Source: Haloarcula halophila | Lineage (GTDB): Archaea > Halobacteriota > Halobacteria > Halobacteriales > Haloarculaceae | Reading direction: 5' to 3' | Length of the DNA: 64,000 nucleotides | NCBI RefSeq assembly: GCF_029278565.1 | Contig: NZ_CP119559.1 | Span: 2,418,001-2,482,000, forward strand | Part shown: positions 37,969-52,737 of the stretch, in pieces | How positions within the stretch are numbered: position 1 is the first letter of the stretch | Layout of the letters: every line of letters starts with the position of its first letter | Made by a program: the position numbers and the translations under genes | Notes under the pieces: model-generated | What the model was told of the DNA's origin: nothing | Databases searched by the model: none | Seen by the model: only the letters and a program-made list of their open reading frames with translations

Positions 37969-37980
37969 AACCCATTTAAG
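37969..37980 (-). promoter_or_regulatory. TATA-ATGGGT promoter core, MetF-like gene
   Basis: On the minus strand CTTAAATGGGTT lies about 60 bases upstream of the start at 37916, inside the end of the upstream gene. The same core occurs before the 38995 gene and the Rieske gene at nearly the same distance. Confidence 0.5.
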
Positions 37981-38995
37981 AGTGATCGCTCGGGGCACAC
38001 TGTCTGATGCGAGCCACGGCCTGCTCGTAGGACGTTTCCTGCTGGTCGCCGTCGGAGATGCGGTGGAGGACGAGGCCGATGAGATTGAGTTCCCGCAGGA
38101 GGTCACGGGTCTGCTGGCGCTCTAGTCCCAGCGAACGTTGGACCTCGTAGACCGCCGAGGCGTCCACGACGGCCTCGACGACGCCCTCCAGCGTGACGCC
38201 CTCGGGCATCCCGATGCCGTCGGTGACGAGTTGCTCGTCGGGCATCGCCGCCGTCGGGTCGGTCTCCGTGTCGGCCGCGCTCGCGTCGTGGGCGCTCGTA
38301 TCCGCCGTGCTCCCGCGCGCGTCGTCCGACCCGGTGTCGTACGTGTCGGGTTTGTGGACGCCGGCCTCGATCATGTACCGGCGGACCGTCTCCGCCGAGA
38401 TCTCCATCTCTATCTCGCGGCTCATCTCGGTGAAGGTGTCGTAGGCGTCGTACAGCGCTCGGAGGTACTCCGTGTCCTCGTAGGGTGGAACGGAGTCGTC
38501 CCGGACCGCCTGCGGGCCGGTCACTGTCGGATCGTCGTCCCCGTGGTCCTCGTTATCCACCGAATCGGCGGCGCTATCGTCGGTTCGGTCACTCGTCGGC
38601 TCCCCGGTCCGACGCGGTTCGTCCGCTGTCGTCGGGTCGGTGTCGTCGGGATCGATGGTCAGTTCGACGGTAAGCAGGAGGCCGTCGTCGGCAACCCGGA
38701 CGGCACCTTCGGTGGCCGCGACCCCCGGGAGGTCGTCGGGCAGCGTGCCTGGTGTCGACCTGTCGAACTCCACCTGGAGCCCACCGTTGTCGGTCAGCGT
38801 GGCCGTCTCCGCGGTGAGTGTCGAGTCGCCCTCGGCCCCGGCGGGACACAGCGACACGGGGACATCCAGCGTGACCGACAGTCCGTCACCCGAGCCGTCG
38901 TCGGCCGTCGCCTCGACGTTCCGGATCTCACGGCCGCGTGACTCGTACTCGTCGATGATGTCGGAAAGGATATCGAACGAATTCTGTAATCCCAT
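37976..38995 (-). CDS. Predicted DNA-binding regulator with two HTH-like segments
   Basis: 339 residues from ATG at 38995. The N-terminal 110 residues form a beta-rich domain (EIRNVEATADDGSGDGLSVT), followed by a long acidic, low-complexity linker (DDTDPTTADEPRRTGEPTSD). A helix-turn-helix-like segment (EISAETVRRYMIEAGVHKP) sits near 195-215 and a second (VYEVQRSLGLERQQTRDLLR) near 285-305. The family resembles haloarchaeal multi-HTH regulators but I cannot name it. It is transcribed in the same direction as the MetF-like gene just downstream and shares promoter and leader motifs with it, so it is a candidate regulator of the one-carbon island. Confidence 0.65.
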   Translation of the reverse strand: MGLQNSFDILSDIIDEYESRGREIRNVEATADDGSGDGLSVTLDVPVSLCPAGAEGDSTLTAETATLTDNGGLQVEFDRSTPGTLPDDLPGVAATEGAVRVADDGLLLTVELTIDPDDTDPTTADEPRRTGEPTSDRTDDSAADSVDNEDHGDDDPTVTGPQAVRDDSVPPYEDTEYLRALYDAYDTFTEMSREIEMEISAETVRRYMIEAGVHKPDTYDTGSDDARGSTADTSAHDASAADTETDPTAAMPDEQLVTDGIGMPEGVTLEGVVEAVVDASAVYEVQRSLGLERQQTRDLLRELNLIGLVLHRISDGDQQETSYEQAVARIRQCAPSDHS

Positions 38996-41271: not shown

Positions 41272-41506
41272 GCAATCCCCCGCTTCGCCGGGTACCATCT
41301 TAGAACCCAGGTTTCAGTCAACCGACACCGCTGTCGTGGCCCTCCGGCGTCGCCCGGGACCCGGCAGCGATCGGGACCCCACTCCTTCACAACGATGGCG
41401 TTGTGAACTACGAACCACTACTGGTCAGTACACCTACTTTTTGAAAAGCCCGCCCCGGCCAGCGGAAACTATTTGCCGACCCCACCGTCATCCTCAGACT
41501 AGATTT

Positions 41507-44092
41507 ATGCAACCGACCGAGAACTTACCGGAGCAGGCCGACACCGTCATCGTCGGCGCCGGTATCGTGGGGTGTAACCTCGCGTATCAACTGACCGAGA
41601 TGGGGAGAGAGGACGTCGTCGTCGTCGACCAGGGGCCGATGCCCACCACGGGTGGCTCCTCGACGCACGCGCCGGGGATCATGTTCCAGACGGCCGAGCC
41701 GAAGACGCTCAGCCAGTTCGCGAACTACAGCCGGAAGCTCTACTCGGACTTGGAGGGCGCAGACGGCAAGCAGGCCTACAGCGAGACCGGCGGTATCGAG
41801 GTGGCACGCAGCGAGGAACGGATGGCGTTCCTCCAGCGCCGTGTCGAACACGCCAAGGCCTGGGGGATCCCCGATCCACAGATCCTCTCGCCCTCGGAGG
41901 TGACGGACCACCTCCCGCTGGTCGACGAGGAGGAGATCCTGGGCGGGTACTACTCCCCGACCGACGGCCAGGTCTCCGGCGTCGTCGCCTGTGACGCGCT
42001 CGCGAGGGAGGCGATGGACCGGGGCGCGAAGTTCGTCCCCCACACCCGAACCGAGGACGTCGACGTCGAGGGCGGCGCTGTCCAGCGCGTCGTCACCGAG
42101 AACGGGAGTATCGAGTGTGACGAGGTGGTCGTCGCGACGAACATCTGGGCGCGGCAACTGGGCGAGAAACTCGGCGTCCACCTCCCAGTGACGCCGGTCG
42201 AACACCAGTACACGATGACCGAGTCGCTGGAGGAACTGGCGGACAACGCGATCGACGTCACCGACCACCCGCTGTTCGAGAACTACGAGAACGTCTCCGG
42301 CGAGAAGACCAAACGGCTCCTGGCCGACCCGGACCGCCCCATCCTCCGGGACCAGGACAACGCGATGTACTACCGGACCCACGGGGACGCCTACGGCATC
42401 GGCTCGTACAACCACGAGCCAATCGTCCCGGACCCACGGGACCTGGGCGGCAACGACCCGGACGGCGAACAGGGCTCTGTCCACGAGTTCACCGACTTCC
42501 ACATGGACAACGCGACCCATCCGGATCGGCCCCACAAGGCCCCGCGCCAGGCCAGCGACGAACTCCTGCCGGCGACGGCCGGGAAAGAACTCGAACACAA
42601 GTACAACGGGATGTTCGCCGAGTCCCCCAACGGGCTGCCCGTGATGGGGCCTGTCCAGGAGTACGACGGGCTCTGGACCGCGGCGGCAATCTGGGTCACC
42701 CACGCCGGCGGCGCGATGAAAGCGCTGGCCGAGTGGATGGAGACGGGTGTCCCGCGGCTCGACGACGGCCCCATCGACCTGGCACACTGTGACGTCAACC
42801 GGTTCGACGACCACGAGGGAAGCTGGGACTTCGCCCGCGACATCGGCGGCGAGGAGTACCGCATCGTCTACAACATCATGCACCCCAAGTGGGTGTGGAC
42901 GGACAAACAGCGCGACATCCGGCGGACGCCGATGTATCACACCCACAAGGAGTACGACGCGGAACTGTGGGCCGAGGCCGGCTGGGAGGAACCCCAGTGG
43001 TTCGAGTCCAACGCGGACCTCGTCGACCGCTACGAGGACCAGATCCCCGACCGGAACGGCTGGGAGGGCGTCTACTACTCGCCCATCGAGGGCGCCGAGG
43101 CGCTGAACGTCCGGGAGAACGTCGGCCTCCACGACATGACCTCGTTCAACAAGATGGAGGTCGTCGGCAGCGACGCCGGCGAGTTCGTCCAGTACCTCTG
43201 TACGAACGACATGGACATCGGCGTCGGTGACGTGAAGTACACGCTGATGTGTAACGAGGGCGGCGGCGTCCGGGCCGACATCACCGTCACCCGGACCGAC
43301 GAGGACCGCTACCTCCTGTTGACGACCGGCCGCGAGGTGGGGAACAACCACGTCGCGTGGGTCCGCGAGCAGGCCCCCGACGGCGTCGTCGTCAACGACG
43401 TCACTTCCAGCCTGGCGGCGATGGTCTGTACCGGCCCGAACGCCCGGAAGGTCCTCTCGAAGGTCACCGACGTCGACCTCTCGGACGAGGCCTTCCCGTT
43501 CTTCACGAGCCAGCAGTTCTTCGTCAAGAACGTCCCCGTGACGGCGCTGCGGGTCTCGTATGCCGGCGAACTCGGCTGGGAGCTGTACACCCCCTCGGAG
43601 TACGGGGAACGCCTCTGGGAATACCTGCTGGAGGCCGGCGAGGAGTACGGTCTGCGCCCCTACGGCAACGGCGCGCTCAACGCCCTGCGCATCGAGAAAG
43701 GGTTCCGGCTGTGGGGGAAGGACCTCCACACCGAGCACACGCCACACGAAGCGGGCCTCGGCTGGGCCGTCGATATGGACACCGACTTCATCGGGAAGGA
43801 GGCGCTCCAGGAGACCGCCGAGGCGGCGGCGGACGGCGGTGCCCGACGCAAGGAAGTGGCCTGTCTCACGCTGAACGACGAGGACGCGACCATCCTCGAC
43901 AACCGTCCGGTCCTCGACGGCGAGGAGTCCATCGGCTACGTCCACAGCGCCGAGTACGGCTACACCGTCGGGGCCTGTGTCGCTTATAGTTATCTCCCGC
44001 CGGAGTACACCGACCCCGGTACCGAGGTCGACATCCTCTACGAGGGCGACCGCTACACCGCGACCGTCCGCGAGGAACCGCTGGTCTCCTAA
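41507..44092 (+). CDS. FAD-dependent dimethylglycine/sarcosine dehydrogenase with GcvT domain, copy 1
   Basis: 861 residues from ATG at 41507 (leader AGATTTATG). N-terminal FAD-binding DAO domain with GAGIVG (17-22) and a GGSSTHAPG motif at about 49-57 in which His54 aligns with the covalent-FAD His of dimethylglycine dehydrogenase. The C-terminal half (from about 450) is an aminomethyltransferase (GcvT/FolM-type) domain: ADITVTRTDEDRYLLLTTGR, LRVSYAGELGWELYTPSEYG and IGYVHSAEYGYTVGA. Such fusions demethylate dimethylglycine or sarcosine and deliver the methyl carbon to THF as methylene-THF. Substrate not decided between the two copies. Confidence 0.85.
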   Translation: MQPTENLPEQADTVIVGAGIVGCNLAYQLTEMGREDVVVVDQGPMPTTGGSSTHAPGIMFQTAEPKTLSQFANYSRKLYSDLEGADGKQAYSETGGIEVARSEERMAFLQRRVEHAKAWGIPDPQILSPSEVTDHLPLVDEEEILGGYYSPTDGQVSGVVACDALAREAMDRGAKFVPHTRTEDVDVEGGAVQRVVTENGSIECDEVVVATNIWARQLGEKLGVHLPVTPVEHQYTMTESLEELADNAIDVTDHPLFENYENVSGEKTKRLLADPDRPILRDQDNAMYYRTHGDAYGIGSYNHEPIVPDPRDLGGNDPDGEQGSVHEFTDFHMDNATHPDRPHKAPRQASDELLPATAGKELEHKYNGMFAESPNGLPVMGPVQEYDGLWTAAAIWVTHAGGAMKALAEWMETGVPRLDDGPIDLAHCDVNRFDDHEGSWDFARDIGGEEYRIVYNIMHPKWVWTDKQRDIRRTPMYHTHKEYDAELWAEAGWEEPQWFESNADLVDRYEDQIPDRNGWEGVYYSPIEGAEALNVRENVGLHDMTSFNKMEVVGSDAGEFVQYLCTNDMDIGVGDVKYTLMCNEGGGVRADITVTRTDEDRYLLLTTGREVGNNHVAWVREQAPDGVVVNDVTSSLAAMVCTGPNARKVLSKVTDVDLSDEAFPFFTSQQFFVKNVPVTALRVSYAGELGWELYTPSEYGERLWEYLLEAGEEYGLRPYGNGALNALRIEKGFRLWGKDLHTEHTPHEAGLGWAVDMDTDFIGKEALQETAEAAADGGARRKEVACLTLNDEDATILDNRPVLDGEESIGYVHSAEYGYTVGACVAYSYLPPEYTDPGTEVDILYEGDRYTATVREEPLVS

Positions 44093-44162: not shown

Positions 44163-44175
44163 CTTTTAAATGGGT
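44163..44175 (+). promoter_or_regulatory. TATA-ATGGGT promoter core, Rieske gene
   Basis: CTTTTAAATGGGT at 44163-44175 lies 57 bases before the ATG at 44227. The same core occurs before the MetF-like and regulator genes at about 60 bases. It also argues against the ATG at 44170, which falls inside this element, as the true start. Confidence 0.5.
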
Positions 44176-44226: not shown

Positions 44227-45366
44227 ATGACTAGATGGAACGCGTCTGACGACGGTGTTACTGCTGTTAGTCCAGATATAACTGACGAAACGAACGCATT
44301 GCCCGCAAAATACTTTACAGAACCACAGATCCATGAACTCGAAAAGGAGAAGATATTCGGTCGATACTGGGTGTACGCCGGACACGCGAACGCGATTCCG
44401 GAGACCGGAGCGTACTTCACGCGGACCATCGGCGACAAGCAAGTGATCGTCGTCCGTGACCACGACGACGAGATACGCGCGTTCTTCAACGTCTGTGCAC
44501 ACCGCGGGTCGAAGATGGTCGAGGATACGCCCATGACCAACCCCGGCAACATGGGTCGTATCCGCTGCCCGTATCACATGTGGTCGTACGACCTGGACGG
44601 CGACCTCGAAAGCACGCCGAAGAGCTTCGAGGAGGCCGGGCTCAACCCTGACCTGGATGACGAGGAAGTCTGTGGTTTGGACGCCAGCGAGAACGGACTC
44701 AACGAGGTCCGGACCGACCGGATCGGACCGTTCGTCTTCCTCAACTTCGCCGACGACCCGATGGCGCTGGCCGAGCAGGCAGGGACGCTGAAAACGGAGC
44801 TGGAAGCCATGCCCTTAGAAGAGTACGAACACGCGGCGCGGTACGTGTCGGAAGTCGACTGCAACTGGAAGACGTTCGCCGGCAACTACTCGGAGTGCGA
44901 TCACTGTCACGCGAACCACCAGGACTGGATAACCGACATCGAACTCGACGAGTCCAACCTCGAAGTCAACGACTACCACTGGATTCTCCACTACACCCAC
45001 GACGAGGACGTCGACGACGAACTCCGCATCCACGAGGAAAAAGAGGCGAAGTTCTACTACTTCTGGCCGAACTTCACGGTGAACATGTACGGCACGGCCG
45101 ACGGGTACGGGACGTACATCATCGACCCGATCGACGAGGGCCGGTTCCAGTTGATTGCCGACTACTACTTCAGTTCCGCGGAGATGACTGACGCGGAGCG
45201 AGAGTTCGTCCAGACGAGCCGCCAGCTGCAGGAAGAGGACTTCGAACTCGTCGAACGCCAGTACGAAGGGCTACAGTCCGGCGCGCTTGCCCAGGCACAA
45301 CTGGGACCGAACGAACACACCGTCCACAAACTGCACCGACTCGCACAGGAGGGCTACGACGCGTGA
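44227..45366 (+). CDS. Rieske [2Fe-2S] oxygenase, glycine betaine demethylase type
   Basis: 379 residues from ATG at 44227. The Rieske cluster is C90-x-H92 and C114-x2-H117 (CAHRGS then CPYHMW), with 21 residues between His92 and Cys114 instead of the usual 15-17. The mononuclear iron site is N220-x2-E223-x2-H226-x4-H231 (NYSECDHCHANH). Architecture and neighbours match the oxygenase subunit of glycine betaine monooxygenase (GbcA), which removes one methyl as formaldehyde to give dimethylglycine; carnitine or stachydrine demethylases are alternatives. No GbcB-like reductase is seen. It overlaps the next gene by 4 bases. Confidence 0.8.
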   Translation: MTRWNASDDGVTAVSPDITDETNALPAKYFTEPQIHELEKEKIFGRYWVYAGHANAIPETGAYFTRTIGDKQVIVVRDHDDEIRAFFNVCAHRGSKMVEDTPMTNPGNMGRIRCPYHMWSYDLDGDLESTPKSFEEAGLNPDLDDEEVCGLDASENGLNEVRTDRIGPFVFLNFADDPMALAEQAGTLKTELEAMPLEEYEHAARYVSEVDCNWKTFAGNYSECDHCHANHQDWITDIELDESNLEVNDYHWILHYTHDEDVDDELRIHEEKEAKFYYFWPNFTVNMYGTADGYGTYIIDPIDEGRFQLIADYYFSSAEMTDAEREFVQTSRQLQEEDFELVERQYEGLQSGALAQAQLGPNEHTVHKLHRLAQEGYDA

Positions 45367-45743
45367 CTCCGGTGTCCCGGACAGACCAGCGAGCGGACGT
45401 GCCGTTCGTCGCTCGATCCACCGAGACGGGTGCCCGTGTCGAGGCGTCGACGGCGAACGAGGTGATCGCGTTCTATCGACGCCAGCAGGGACTGCTGGAC
45501 ACGGATCTCGAATGGGTCTTTGCGGACCATCCGGCAGTCACGACGGTTTCGGACTCGGGCGGTATCGAAACTGTCCTGCGGGCGCTCGACGACGACTTCG
45601 AGAACGGTGTCCCGCTTGGGATTCTCGCCGCCGCGATGAGTAAACAGGGCTGGACCGTCGGGGACACGCTGGCCGAAGTGTACGACTTGCGTATGGACGG
45701 TTCGCTCTGGGAACCCCGGTCGGATCACGTCCGGCCGGTCTGA
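45363..45743 (+). CDS. Small hypothetical protein coupled to the Rieske oxygenase
   Basis: 126 residues starting with GTG at 45363 inside the Rieske stop (GTGA overlap), so it is translated from the same message. The N-terminus contains FVARSTETGARVEASTANEV and IAFYRRQQ, and the C-terminus GWTVGDTLAEVYDLRMDGSL and WEPRSDHVRPV has a helix-turn-helix-like pattern. It has no ferredoxin or flavin motif, so it is not the missing reductase. It may be an assembly, regulatory or electron-transfer helper; function is unknown. Confidence 0.6.
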   Translation: MTPVSRTDQRADVPFVARSTETGARVEASTANEVIAFYRRQQGLLDTDLEWVFADHPAVTTVSDSGGIETVLRALDDDFENGVPLGILAAAMSKQGWTVGDTLAEVYDLRMDGSLWEPRSDHVRPV

Positions 45744-46043: not shown

Positions 46044-48596
46044 ATGAGCACAGAGACTCCCCCATCACGGGCGGATACCGTTATTATCGGTGCCGGGGCT
46101 GTCGGCTGTAGCGTCGCCTACCACCTGTCGGAACTCGGCGCGGCGGACGTCACCGTCGTCGATCAGGGACCGCTCCCGGTCACCGGCGGTTCGTCCGTTC
46201 ATGCGCCAGGTATCATGTTTCAAACGTCGCCGTCGAAGATACAGACGAAGGCGGCCCACTACACCAGCCGATTGCTCTCTGAGGCGGGTGTCTACGACGA
46301 GGTCGGCGGGATCGAACTCGCCCGTAGCGAGGACCGGATGGACTTCCTGCGCCGCCGGAAGGAGTGGGCGACCTCGTACGGACTGCCGGAGCCACAACTG
46401 CTCGACCCCGAAGAGGTGACCGACCACCTCCCGATGGTCGATGAGGACGAGATCCTGGGCGGGTACTACTCCCCGACCGACGGGCGCGTCGACGGGATCG
46501 GGGCCCTCCAGTGGTACATGGAGGAGTCGGCGGCCGACTTCGTCGGGAACACCGAGGTCGAAGACATCGAGGTCGAGGACGGCGCCGTCCAGGCCGTCGT
46601 GACCGACCGCGGCCGCATCGAGTGTGACCGCTGTGTGATGGCGACGAACAACTGGGGGTACCAGACCGGGCAGTTGGCCGGCCTCGACCTCCCGATCGCG
46701 CCCGTCGAACACCAGTACGTCGTCACCGAACCGCTGGACGAACTGGCCGACGAGGAGAGTTCGGTCGGCGACAACACCACCGGGCTGGACGTGCCCGGCG
46801 ACCGCTCCATCGCGGAGTACATGAGCGAGGGACCGACCCAGCCAGTCGGGCGCGACCAGGACCACTCGCTGTACTTCCGGAACCACGGCGACGCCCTGGG
46901 GATGGGGTCGTACAACCACGAGACGCTCTCGGTCGACCCCGAGGCGATGGGGAAAAACACCGACGAACACCAGGCCTCTGTCAGGGGATTCACGAAGGAG
47001 CACTGGGAGAAGCCGACCCACCGTGGCCGGGACAAGTCCGCCAAGCAGGCCTTCGACGAACTCCTGCCGGCAACGCAGGACGTCGAATACGAAGCCACCG
47101 AGAACGGCATCTTCGTGTTCACGCCCGACGGGATGCCCGCCGTCGGCCCGACCGCCGCCGTCGACGGGCTCTGGAGCGGGCTGGCGATCTGGTGGACGCA
47201 CTCGGGGGGCTACGGCAAGATCCTCGCCGAGTGGATGGAGAACGGCGTCCCGCGGCTCCCGTCCGGGCCGGTCGACACCGGCGGCATCCACGTCCGGCGG
47301 TTCGAACCCCACGCGGGCGAGAAAGAGTACTTCGTCGACCGGGGGGCAAAACGGTACGAACAGGTCTACAGCATCGTCGAGCCCCGGTGGCAACCCGACG
47401 ACCACCGTGGGCTGCGGCGAAGTCCGTTCTACAGCCAACAGGAGGACCTGGGTGCGGAGTTCTACCAGAGCGGCGGCTGGGAGACCCCCCAGTACTACGA
47501 GTCCAACGCGGACCTCGTCGACCGCTACGAAGACCAGATCCCCGAACAGGACGGCTGGCAGGCGATCAACCGCTCGCCCATCGAGGCGGCCGAACACCTC
47601 CACACCCGCGAGAAGGTGTCGATGTTCGACATGACCACGTTCAGCTCCATTGTGGTCGAGGGCGAGGGCAGCGGCGAGTTCCTCCAGTCGGTCTGTAGCA
47701 ACGACATCGACATCGACATCGGACAGGTCCGCTACTCGCTGTTGTTGAACGAGGGTGGGGGCATCCTCGCGGACGTGACGGTCGTCCGCTTGGACGACGA
47801 GGAGTACTTGGTCACTACCGGAGGCGGGAGCTCGCCGGGCATCCACGGCGGGTGGCTCGAAGAGCACGCCCCGGAGACGGTGGGTGTCCACGTCGAAGAG
47901 GGCGCGCGCTCGACCATCGGCCTGTGGGGACCGAACGCCCGGCTGCTCCTCCAGCGCTGTACCGACGCCGACGTGACAAACAGCGGCTTCCCGTACTTCC
48001 GGGCCAAGCAGATCTACGTCGGCGAGGTGCCGGTCGTCGCGTTGCGGGTCTCCTACGTCGGCGAACTCGGCTGGGAGCTGTGGGCACCGACCGAGTACGG
48101 CCAGCGCCTCTGGGAGACGCTCTGGGAGGCCGGCCAGGATCTGGGCGTGCGGCCGATGGGCGGGGGCGCGCTCAGTTCGATGCGGCTGGAGAAGGGGTAC
48201 CGGCTGTGGGGCACCGACATCGACACGGACGCCAACCCGTTCGAGGCGGGCCTACCCTTCGCCGTCGACATGGACACCGACTTCGTCGGGAAGGAGGCGC
48301 TCCAGGCGGCACGCGAGGACGGCATCGACAACCGCATCACGCCGCTGACGCTCGACGACTCGACGGACATCATGTTGAGCGGGCGGCCGGTCACGAAAGA
48401 CGGCGAGACGCTCGGGTACGTCCAGGCGGGGGACTACGGCTACACCCTCGGCGAGTCCATCGCCTACACGTACGTCCCGAGCGAGTACGCCGAGGCCGGC
48501 ACCACGGTGCAGGTCCACTGCGAGGGCGAGACCTACGACGCTACCGTTCGCGACGAACCCCTGTTCGATCCGGGCCGGGAGAAGATCATCCGGTAA
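46044..48596 (+). CDS. FAD-dependent dimethylglycine/sarcosine dehydrogenase with GcvT domain, copy 2
   Basis: 850 residues from ATG at 46044, with a TATA-like TTTTTATACT 35 bases upstream. Same two-domain layout as copy 1: GAGAVG at 16-21, GGSSVHAPG with His53, and a GcvT half with SNDIDIDIGQVRYSLLLNEG, LRVSYVGELGWELWAPTEYG and LGYVQAGDYGYTLGES. The paralogs share a long identical DNA stretch around 41930/46450, evidence of duplication. One copy probably acts on dimethylglycine and the other on sarcosine. Its stop is 3 bases before the ammonia-lyase gene, so they are co-expressed. Confidence 0.85.
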   Translation: MSTETPPSRADTVIIGAGAVGCSVAYHLSELGAADVTVVDQGPLPVTGGSSVHAPGIMFQTSPSKIQTKAAHYTSRLLSEAGVYDEVGGIELARSEDRMDFLRRRKEWATSYGLPEPQLLDPEEVTDHLPMVDEDEILGGYYSPTDGRVDGIGALQWYMEESAADFVGNTEVEDIEVEDGAVQAVVTDRGRIECDRCVMATNNWGYQTGQLAGLDLPIAPVEHQYVVTEPLDELADEESSVGDNTTGLDVPGDRSIAEYMSEGPTQPVGRDQDHSLYFRNHGDALGMGSYNHETLSVDPEAMGKNTDEHQASVRGFTKEHWEKPTHRGRDKSAKQAFDELLPATQDVEYEATENGIFVFTPDGMPAVGPTAAVDGLWSGLAIWWTHSGGYGKILAEWMENGVPRLPSGPVDTGGIHVRRFEPHAGEKEYFVDRGAKRYEQVYSIVEPRWQPDDHRGLRRSPFYSQQEDLGAEFYQSGGWETPQYYESNADLVDRYEDQIPEQDGWQAINRSPIEAAEHLHTREKVSMFDMTTFSSIVVEGEGSGEFLQSVCSNDIDIDIGQVRYSLLLNEGGGILADVTVVRLDDEEYLVTTGGGSSPGIHGGWLEEHAPETVGVHVEEGARSTIGLWGPNARLLLQRCTDADVTNSGFPYFRAKQIYVGEVPVVALRVSYVGELGWELWAPTEYGQRLWETLWEAGQDLGVRPMGGGALSSMRLEKGYRLWGTDIDTDANPFEAGLPFAVDMDTDFVGKEALQAAREDGIDNRITPLTLDDSTDIMLSGRPVTKDGETLGYVQAGDYGYTLGESIAYTYVPSEYAEAGTTVQVHCEGETYDATVRDEPLFDPGREKIIR

Positions 48597-48599
48597 GCC

Positions 48600-49850
48600 A
48601 TGTCAGACATCGACTCGGCGGAACTCCCCGTCACGTACGCCGACATCGAGCGTGCCCGCGAGCGGCTGGACGATGACACTGTCGTCAAGGAGACGCCGGT
48701 CGAGCGGAGTTCGTCGCTCGACGACCTCGTCGGCGGCGAGGTGTACCTCAAGATGGAACACCTCCAGTGGACAGGGTCGTTCAAGACCAGAGGGGCGTAC
48801 AACAAGATCTCCCAGGCCGTCGCCCGCGGCGTCGACGAGTTCGTCGCCGCGAGCGCGGGCAACCACGCCCAGGGAGTCGCCCTCGCCGCGACCAAGTGTG
48901 ACGCGGAGTCGACGATCTTCATGCCGACGACCGCGCCACAGGCGAAAGTCGACGCCACCCGCCACTACGGTGCGACGGTAGAACTCGTCGGGAAGGACTT
49001 CCAGGAGGCGATGACCCGCGCCCAGTCGGCCGTCGAGGAGACCGACGCCGAGTTCGTCCACGCCTACGACGACACCGACATCATCGCCGGGCAGGGGACG
49101 CTTGGCTCCGAGATGTACCACGACAACCCCGACACCGACACCGTCGTCGTCCCCATCGGCGGGGGCGGCCTCATCAGCGGCGTCTCGACGGCGATCAAAC
49201 ACCTCTCGCCGGAGACCCGCGTCGTCGGCGTCCAGGCGACGGGCGCTTCGACCGTCCACGAGAGCCTCGATAAGGGGATGCCGGTGACGCTGGACGAGGT
49301 CGACACCATCGCTGACGGCATCGCCACGGGCGGCATCTCCGAGACGACGCTTCGCATCATCAAGGCGAACGTCGACGAGGTGGTCACGGTTACCGACACC
49401 GAGATCGCCAGCGCCATCCTGTTGTTGATGGAGCGGGCCAAACAGGTCGTCGAGGGGGCCGCGGCCGCATCCGTCGCCGCCATCCTGAGCGACGACCTGG
49501 ACGTCAGCGGTGAGACGGTGATGCCGCTGCTCTGTGGCGGGAACCTCGACATGACACAGATGCGAGAAGTTCTCATCCACGCACTGACGGAGCGCCAGCA
49601 GCTCCTCCAGTTGCGGGTCCGTATCGACGACCAGCCGGGGGTCATGGAGGAGATCTCCGGCATCATCGCCAGACAAGGAGCGAACATCCACGACGTGCGC
49701 CACGAACGCTCCGTCGAGGACCTGGAGATCGGTGAGGCCTACCTCGTGTTCAACGTCGAGACGAGCGGGGCCGAGCACGCGGGTAGCATCATCAAGGCCA
49801 TCCGCGGTGCGGGGTACCCTGTCGACAACGTCGCCCAGGCCAGTCGGTGA
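48600..49850 (+). CDS. ilvA: Threonine/serine ammonia-lyase with ACT domain (IlvA/TdcB type)
   Basis: 416 residues. PLP lysine Lys62 in WTGSFKTRGAYN, a glycine-rich phosphate loop VVPIGGGGLISGVSTA near 185-200, and a C-terminal ACT regulatory domain (about 330-416). The enzyme deaminates threonine or serine to 2-oxobutyrate or pyruvate plus ammonia. Its gene follows the second demethylase by 3 bases, suggesting it converts serine made from glycine and methylene-THF to pyruvate. It could instead be the housekeeping isoleucine enzyme; the ACT domain suits amino-acid control. Confidence 0.87.
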   Translation: MSDIDSAELPVTYADIERARERLDDDTVVKETPVERSSSLDDLVGGEVYLKMEHLQWTGSFKTRGAYNKISQAVARGVDEFVAASAGNHAQGVALAATKCDAESTIFMPTTAPQAKVDATRHYGATVELVGKDFQEAMTRAQSAVEETDAEFVHAYDDTDIIAGQGTLGSEMYHDNPDTDTVVVPIGGGGLISGVSTAIKHLSPETRVVGVQATGASTVHESLDKGMPVTLDEVDTIADGIATGGISETTLRIIKANVDEVVTVTDTEIASAILLLMERAKQVVEGAAAASVAAILSDDLDVSGETVMPLLCGGNLDMTQMREVLIHALTERQQLLQLRVRIDDQPGVMEEISGIIARQGANIHDVRHERSVEDLEIGEAYLVFNVETSGAEHAGSIIKAIRGAGYPVDNVAQASR

Positions 49851-50982: not shown

Positions 50983-52737
50983 ATGTCAGAAAGTGACGAT
51001 ACTGCTGGGGAGATGTCGGATGGACTTCAGGTAGAGCTGTTCCATCCGGAATCGGACCGCGAACCCGGTGACACGAACATCCAGGCGCTCGGGTTCGACA
51101 TCCACCCGATCGTCTTCCCGGTTGCTCTGGTGATCATCGCGTTGTTCATCGCGGTGACTGTCCTGCTCGGGGATACCGCCTCGTCGGCGTACACCTGGCT
51201 GTTCAACTTCATCGGGGACACGTTCGGCTGGTTCTACTTGCTGGCGGTGAACGTCTTCATCGCCGTATTGCTGTTCTTCGCGTTCAGCAAGTACGGGAAG
51301 ATCAAGATCGGTGGCGTCGAAGCCGAGAAGGAGTTCAGCGACTTCTCGTGGATGGCGATGCTGTTCAGTGCCGGGATGGGGATCGGCCTCATGTTCTTCA
51401 GCGTCTCCGAGCCGCTGTACTACTTCCAGAACGTTCCGAGCTTCTTCGGCGCGGAGGCGGGAACCGGCGCGGCGGCCTCCGCGGCGATGGCACAGACGTT
51501 CTTCCACTGGGGCTTTCACCCGTGGGCGGTGTACGGACTCGTCGGCCTCGGGCTGGCGTTCTTCTCGTTCAACCGCGGGTTGCCGCTGACGTTCCGGTCG
51601 ATCTTCTGGCCCCTGCTCGGCGAGCGGATCTACGGCTGGCCCGGACACATCATCGATCTCGTGACGGTGTTCGCGACGCTGTTCGGCCTGTCGACGTCGC
51701 TCGGTCTGGGCGTCGCACAGGTCAACACCGGCCTCTCGTACGTGGGCGGTGACATGCTCGGCCTCGTCAGCATTCCGACGGGGACCTGGCCACAGGTCGC
51801 CCTCATCGCCGGGATCACCCTGATCGCCACGATGTCGGTCGCGGCCGGCCTCGACGGCGGCGTCAAGCGACTCAGCACCATCAACCTCTACCTGATGTTC
51901 GCGCTGCTCGGCTTCCTCCTCATCGTCGGACCCACGGTGTACATCCTGGGGTCCTGGGTCGAGGGGCTGGGCGCGTACTTCGGGAACATCCTCGCGCTGG
52001 GCTTCTTCACTGGCACGCTCGGACCGGCCGAGAACGGGACGGTGACGGCCTGGACGGTGTTCTACTGGGGCTGGTGGATCGCGTGGTCGCCGTTCGTCGG
52101 GATGTTCATCGCGCGCATCTCGAAGGGCCGTTCGGTCCGTGAGTTCGTCCTAGGCGTGCTGTTCCTGCCCGCGCTGTTCTCGACGCTGTGGCTGTCGGTG
52201 TTCGGCGGGAGCGCGCTGTTCAACTCCTTGCAGGGCAACGGTGCGGCGCTCGCGACCTACAACGAACTCGGCCAGACCGTCGCGATGTTCGCCATGCTCG
52301 AACAGTTCCCGCTGGGAGCCGTTTCGGGCCTGCTCGCGACGCTGCTGGTCATCACCTTCTTCGTCACGTCCTCTGACTCCGGGTCGCTGGTCATCGACCA
52401 CCTGACCTCCGGCGGGAAACACGACGTGCCGAGGGTCCAGCGGATCTTCTGGGCACTGGTCGAGGGGCTGGTCGCCTCGATCCTGCTCATCGGTGGCGGC
52501 CTGACGGCGCTGCAGACGGCCGCTATCACGACCGGACTGCCGTTCGCGGTCATCCTGTGTCTGATGTGTTACACGGTGTATCTGGGGCTCAGCAACGAGT
52601 ACCAGATCCTCGAATCCGAGGAGTTCGCCGAGACGATACAGGACCTCACCGAAGAGAGCGACGTCGACATCACGACGGCCGGCGACGCGACGGTAACGGA
52701 CGTTTCGGACAGAGACGAGACGCCGAGCGGCGACTGA
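50983..52737 (+). CDS. BCCT-family betaine carrier 1
   Basis: 584 residues with about 12 hydrophobic segments and acidic tails at both ends. The glycine-rich segment AGMGIGLMFFSVSEPLYYF corresponds to the substrate site helix of BetP-type carriers, and the Trp box is WTVFYWGWWIAWSPFVGMF. The GIGLMFF form resembles sodium-coupled betaine carriers rather than CaiT-type exchangers. It would import glycine betaine for osmoprotection and for the demethylation pathway nearby. No regulatory C-terminal domain beyond about 40 acidic residues is seen. Confidence 0.88.
   Translation: MSESDDTAGEMSDGLQVELFHPESDREPGDTNIQALGFDIHPIVFPVALVIIALFIAVTVLLGDTASSAYTWLFNFIGDTFGWFYLLAVNVFIAVLLFFAFSKYGKIKIGGVEAEKEFSDFSWMAMLFSAGMGIGLMFFSVSEPLYYFQNVPSFFGAEAGTGAAASAAMAQTFFHWGFHPWAVYGLVGLGLAFFSFNRGLPLTFRSIFWPLLGERIYGWPGHIIDLVTVFATLFGLSTSLGLGVAQVNTGLSYVGGDMLGLVSIPTGTWPQVALIAGITLIATMSVAAGLDGGVKRLSTINLYLMFALLGFLLIVGPTVYILGSWVEGLGAYFGNILALGFFTGTLGPAENGTVTAWTVFYWGWWIAWSPFVGMFIARISKGRSVREFVLGVLFLPALFSTLWLSVFGGSALFNSLQGNGAALATYNELGQTVAMFAMLEQFPLGAVSGLLATLLVITFFVTSSDSGSLVIDHLTSGGKHDVPRVQRIFWALVEGLVASILLIGGGLTALQTAAITTGLPFAVILCLMCYTVYLGLSNEYQILESEEFAETIQDLTEESDVDITTAGDATVTDVSDRDETPSGD

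Follow-up and report, generated by a model that had tools for sequence, protein, structure and literature searches.

A small winged-helix protein of the HVO_B0008 family as a candidate accessory protein of haloarchaeal CntA/GbcA-like Rieske oxygenases

Directly behind a Rieske oxygenase gene of Haloarcula halophila lies the gene of a 126-residue protein, here called protein X, that may be a dedicated non-catalytic accessory protein, most likely bound to the Rieske-bearing oxygenase subunit. We put the chances of this reading at about even, and regard X as a plausible component of the demethylase. The accessory role is favoured because the junction between the two genes is fixed, the winged helix of X is of a protein-binding type, its metal ligands are dispensable, and X is associated with the Rieske-bearing protein. 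X would serve a single clade among the group-V (CntA/GbcA-like) Rieske oxygenases of haloarchaea and would be made together with the oxygenase, binding the Rieske-bearing subunit through its winged helix and small N-terminal domain; once bound, it might aid the assembly or stability of the oxygenase, or provide a docking site for a free-standing electron donor. The window, in what follows, is the whole stretch of DNA analysed, 64,000 nucleotides of contig NZ_CP119559.1.

Results

The oxygenase-X gene pair

Protein X is encoded on the forward strand at 45363..45743, a frame that reads from a GTG start through 126 residues without an internal stop. The GTG (45363-45365) overlaps the TGA stop codon of the oxygenase (45364-45366) by 4 nt, the two being fused as GTGA at 45363..45366 on the same strand, and sequence and translation thus bear out the coordinates, the length and the four-base overlap from which the initial annotation had deduced coupling. 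A possible alternative start of X in the window is GTG 45372. Pairwise dN/dS within Haloarcula is 0.14-0.34 (15 pairs of six sequences), a sign of purifying selection, and X is therefore a real gene. The 4-nt overlap is not universal: with start codons picked by rule, 21 of the 72 pairs overlap, 11 of these by 4 nt, while gaps of 0-30 nt are seen in 40 and of 31-110 nt in 11, the median gap being 8 nt. In H. marismortui the orthologue, as annotated, begins after a gap of 5 nt.

The oxygenase (44227..45366, forward strand) would comprise 379 residues from ATG 44227, which is most likely its start, rather than 44170 where the open reading frame opens, because homologues begin there. Its best solved relative is the carnitine monooxygenase CntA (6y8j, 1.7e-38), whose motif NYMECYHC aligns with NYSECDHC here, placing Y240, E242, C243, H245 and C246. 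The other iron ligands, from the CntA alignment, we take to be H250 and D357. By the motif alignment, the tyrosine Y203 and the bridging glutamate E205 described for CntA in PMC7948474 correspond to Y240 and E242. Against the NCBIfam GbcA model NF058607 the oxygenase scores 146.6 bits, below the cut-off of 670 and hence outside strict membership of that family. We infer that betaine is the substrate, given the CntA/GbcA-like residues and because the adjoining genes, all on the forward strand, encode two FAD oxidoreductase-GcvT proteins, one upstream (41504..44092; dimethylglycine/sarcosine dehydrogenase-like) and one downstream (46044..48596), a threonine/serine ammonia-lyase-like protein (48600..49850; the H. 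marismortui orthologue is annotated ilvA) and a BCCT family transporter (50983..52737).

Conservation of the pair in reshuffled surroundings

In an even draw of 391 Halobacteria genomes, the X family was matched in 68 (E<=1e-6) and the oxygenase in 72 (E<=1e-30), with both in 67, a family match alone in one and the oxygenase alone in five. The lone family match (G366, 31.2 bits in a 1238-aa frame) is weak and probably an MCM protein rather than X. Weak C-terminal matches in long open reading frames, present in most genomes with the family, were likewise read as probable MCM winged helices and were not counted as X; seven weak matches (L135-L141) have no adjoining oxygenase. In all of the 72 loci X has the oxygenase directly upstream and in the same orientation. 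These loci comprise 71 matches and the window, come from 69 genomes (G050 and G054 entered through the family search; G289, G297 and G428 carry two copies each) and were read in stretches of 12.5 kb, shortened to 7 kb where a copy lay close to the end of its contig (two cases). X also stands behind the oxygenase in 40 of 40 loci of a second set from named genomes, which largely overlaps the class draw in organisms, and a phylum draw of 294 genomes contained five with an X match, all already met in the class draw. The initial annotation had made its proposal of a coupled partner depend on conservation of the pair across haloarchaeal genomes, and conserved it proved to be. The pair also occurs in a metagenome-assembled genome titled 'Euryarchaeota archaeon' (L171:906-2492), with 73% oxygenase identity.

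The five genomes with an oxygenase and no X (G218, G343, G358, G369 and G437) have complete, distant enzymes (44-54% identity), which branch as a group of their own in an oxygenase tree of 57 sequences built by a quick method (SH-aLRT 99), and X is therefore not needed for the chemistry as such. No DMG-type genes were found beside these five in the short stretches read.

What surrounds the pair is far less constant. By a codon-usage gene call, the gene at position -1 of X is the oxygenase in all 70 loci where both genes were called, while the -2, +1 and +2 neighbours vary among many kinds of gene: in these 70 loci the -2 position holds an FAD enzyme (31 on the opposite and 6 on the same strand), a member of a family that we call c5 (14), an IclR gene (6), an MTHFR-like gene (5) or another, and at +1 stands a Bat-type regulator in opposite orientation (33), followed by many others. 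The oxygenase-X junction is thus fixed, whereas its surroundings have been reshuffled many times. This contrast, together with the retention of X beside oxygenases ranging from 52 to 100% identity to that of the window, makes it highly improbable that X is a passenger of the operon that plays no part in the oxygenase, even though most loci share descent and X is less constrained than the oxygenase, whose dN/dS in Haloarcula is 0.05-0.18. Against the accessory role, too, the adjacency may be inherited gene order, the loci not being independent.

Two further features of the neighbourhood were observed. Aminomethyltransferase-like and MTHFR-like genes lie directly before or near the oxygenase-X pair in L126, L128, L131-L133 and L127, which suggests one-carbon capture by folate. 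The c5 family (about 260-430 aa) recurs in 24 of the 72 loci, has no Pfam match over cut-off and, by eye, begins much like the window's open reading frame at 37976-38995 on the reverse strand.

Family and predicted fold of protein X

Protein X belongs to the uncharacterised HVO_B0008 family (PF25214/PF25215), for which the Pfam output gives no function. Its C-terminal domain matches HVO_B0008_C at 93.5 bits (cut-off 27.4), and its N-terminal domain, at 18.7 bits, stays below the cut-off of 27; the canonical relative L126 matches both domains, the N-terminal one at 77.1 bits. At E<=1, the Pfam matches of X comprise three families only, none of which points to a sequence relation with the beta subunits of Rieske oxygenases, and neither Pfam nor NCBIfam returns a flavin, [2Fe-2S], FAD/NAD-binding or ferredoxin family at that threshold, in keeping with the initial annotation, which had seen no flavin or iron-sulphur motif.

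AlphaFold2 models, with a mean pLDDT of 88.9 for the window's X and 90.9 for L126, predict a beta-beta-alpha-beta N-terminal domain (about residues 14-54; 45402..45524, forward strand) and a C-terminal winged helix of MCM/RPA32 type (residues 66-126; 45558..45740, forward strand). Together with the HVO_B0008_C match, this winged helix shows that the HTH-like C-terminus noted initially was rightly recognised. A plain Foldseek search of the model against the PDB gave no match at E<=0.001. In a second look at the Foldseek candidates with VIA-align, residues 66-126 superposed on the MCM C-terminal winged helices 2ma3 (Z 7.4, rmsd 1.5, 61 residues) and 2m45 (Z 7.3, rmsd 1.7, 61 residues) and on RPA32C 4ou0 (Z 5.9, rmsd 2.0, 58 residues), values that, being under 8, may by themselves mean only a common arrangement of elements. 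The sequence of X also resembles haloarchaeal MCM ends, with an EPR-DH wing pattern common to both, and matches the Pfam MCM winged helix PF21120 at 13.1 bits (cut-off 26.1); this likeness and this weak match point the same way as the modelled fold. X thus shares its fold with the archaeal MCM C-terminal and RPA32 winged helices; unlike these, it is a small stand-alone protein encoded beside an oxygenase, does not belong to a replication protein and falls below the Pfam MCM cut-off.

According to PMC11686378, the winged helices of RPA2 and Stn1 contact their protein partners with strands 2 and 3 and the end of helix 3, while the MCM winged helix is an allosteric regulator. In the same region of X, R110, G113, E117 and P118 are invariant and D121 nearly so. 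These conserved wing residues also occur in MCM and may be structural. An adjacent Arg-Arg pair is invariant in all 70 aligned X sequences, the alignments omitting two G428 copies (L076 and L081) with undetermined bases.

Loss of the ancestral Cys/His motif

In 63 of the 72 family members, the N-terminal domain carries the motif C-x2-C-x18-H-x5-H with a single fixed spacing, its four ligands being 100% conserved among those of these members that were aligned. The nine members without it belong to the window, to seven other genomes of its genus and to G114 of its family; Cys-2 and both His are never kept in them, Cys-1 is kept in four, and the two Cys and two His of a C2H2-type zinc site are accordingly found neither in the window's X nor in its eight relatives. 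The initial annotation, though right in its description of X, overlooked the four putative metal ligands of the ancestral protein, as they are gone from the window's clade. X was also considered as an electron carrier, and this was rejected: no redox family is matched, and nine relatives have lost the ligands yet retain the oxygenase, which speaks against a redox function.

The ancestral C2H2-like motif and the winged-helix fold would both suit the main rival of the accessory role, in which X would be a small autoregulator that binds DNA or RNA and acts on the betaine operon, with the winged helix as the DNA-reading part and with Brz, which regulates the adjacent bop gene, as the precedent; we consider this somewhat unlikely. 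Winged helices often bind DNA, which counts against the accessory role. Nor does charge tell X apart from the DNA-binding Bat domain: the net value per residue is -0.116 in the winged helix of X (70 members), -0.109 in the HTH end of Bat (39), -0.008 in the IclR HTH (14) and -0.130 in MCM (17). Against a regulator, helix 3 of X has an acidic consensus. Brz, in PMC2253796, is a small zinc-finger regulator encoded directly beside bop, and X resembles it in being a small haloarchaeal protein that adjoins its presumed target and, in most members, has a CPxC start; unlike Brz, X has H-x5-H as its second pair in relatives and an added winged helix, and its ligands are lost in the window. The definition of CPxCG-related zinc fingers given in that paper (two Cys/His pairs spaced 2-3 residues, one of them CPxCG-like) excludes X, with its H-x5-H pair in relatives and no such pair in the window. 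Moreover, Brz is reported there to have needed its Cys/His residues, whereas nine X members have lost theirs.

The operons themselves bear on autoregulation in both directions. A Bat-type, IclR or c5-family gene is present in 62 of the 72 loci (Bat in 40, IclR in 10), so many operons have other regulator candidates, with a DNA-binding assignment for Bat and IclR only; in the remaining 10 loci none of the three occurs within the stretch read, which would leave room for X as the regulator. That X keeps its position behind the oxygenase whatever else the operon holds, and that it tracks the Rieske-bearing paralogue described below, both speak against it.

Split paralogues and electron supply

The association of X with the Rieske-bearing protein is seen where the oxygenase (OX1) has a paralogue of about 336 aa, OX2, in which the Rieske ligands are gone (SR or SN replaces the first C and H, and the second pair is deleted) and the catalytic residues are kept. 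OX2 occurs in 16 of the 391 genomes, the G428 copy being a fragment; every one of these genomes has OX1 and X, and X stands behind OX2 in none of the 16. In five genomes of one genus, Natronococcus by the matching named records, OX1 has kept its Rieske ligands and lost the His/Asp ligands of the iron (at least one His in all five by pairwise alignment, both in the L089 row of alignment A1), and X follows this Rieske-bearing degenerate OX1 in 5 of 5. Median dN/dS over 10 pairs each is 0.26 for the Rieske half and 0.57 for the catalytic half of the degenerate OX1 (one of the five being cut short), 0.36 and 0.13 for OX2, and 0.15 and 0.06 for the intact OX1 of relatives. In the oxygenase tree the degenerate OX1 form one group (100), apart from that of the X-less oxygenases, and OX2 needs two changes.

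Electron transfer in these enzymes runs between subunits, from a Rieske centre to the iron of the neighbouring subunit (PMC7948474; PMC12445004), so Rieske-only and iron-only halves can form a working pair. The staying of X with the electron-entry half fits an action on the Rieske side without proving it; X may perhaps follow OX1 and not OX2 only as a result of the downstream placement of the duplicate.

The complementary split, with OX1 and OX2 in the same cluster and selective constraint exchanged between their two halves, is found in L089, L090, L094, L098 and L101, and OX2 also in L074, L083, L086, L088, L095, L102 and L149-L153. In Halocatena, OX1 and OX2 (L074:4857-5990 and L074:6786-7796) have nearly identical catalytic halves and differing Rieske halves, as after gene conversion.

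Among 64 oxygenases, degenerate and short ones dropped, only six columns (81, 106, 137, 168, 247 and 339, numbered from the opening of the reading frame at 44170) carry a different fixed residue in the clade with the ligand-less X. Four of the six lie in the Rieske half, 106 and 137 being 3 and 1 residues from cluster ligands, a pattern that comprises small numbers and is confounded by descent. Such a pattern, with the same reservation, and the association of X with the Rieske-bearing protein only, would also agree with a transient maturation factor that inserts or protects the [2Fe-2S] cluster or the iron and does not stay in the enzyme. We regard this as quite improbable: the loss of ligands in nine X members argues against the handing over of metal, and the other Rieske-domain proteins of the window genome have no X, the genome containing a single strong X match.

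No match to PF00175, the ferredoxin/NADP reductase-type NAD-binding domain, was found at E<=0.01 in the whole window genome, the same search giving matches in 10 of 14 control genomes; the genome has six Fer2 and four Rieske-domain matches. Hence the genome seems to lack a reductase of the CntB type, and the oxygenase probably receives its electrons from a ferredoxin. The system resembles CntA/CntB and GbcA/GbcB in having a CntA-like oxygenase with aligned catalytic-motif residues, and differs from them in the lack of a CntB-type PF00175 domain in the window genome and in the extra partner X. A more specific form of the accessory role, which we deem unlikely, would have X on the Rieske subunit dock a free ferredoxin, with no CntB-type reductase, and would make the Natronococcus enzyme an obligate hetero-oligomer of Rieske-only and iron-only subunits with X on the electron-entry half.

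Discussion

As an accessory protein, X would have a counterpart in the beta subunits of alpha3beta3 Rieske oxygenases, for which alpha-beta is the usual gene order and which, like X, are small, cofactor-free and encoded directly after the oxygenase. It departs from them in that no sequence relation was found and in that its modelled fold presumably differs from theirs. A role of beta subunits in stability and in contact with the redox partner is described in PMC12445004. Among openly licensed PMC papers, we found no functional report on HVO_B0008 or five neighbouring tags, and none that treats haloarchaea, Rieske proteins and betaine together as one system. The family already has a Pfam name; with such an architecture, X would add a new form to the known kinds of accessory component in Rieske systems.

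The split paralogues amount to a natural experiment on the electron transfer between subunits that PMC7948474 describes for CntA. The accessory role would provide a testable function for a Pfam family of unnamed role that is present in 67 of 391 sampled Halobacteria genomes, and it bears on electron delivery to Rieske oxygenases in these archaea, where the usual reductase domain is missing.
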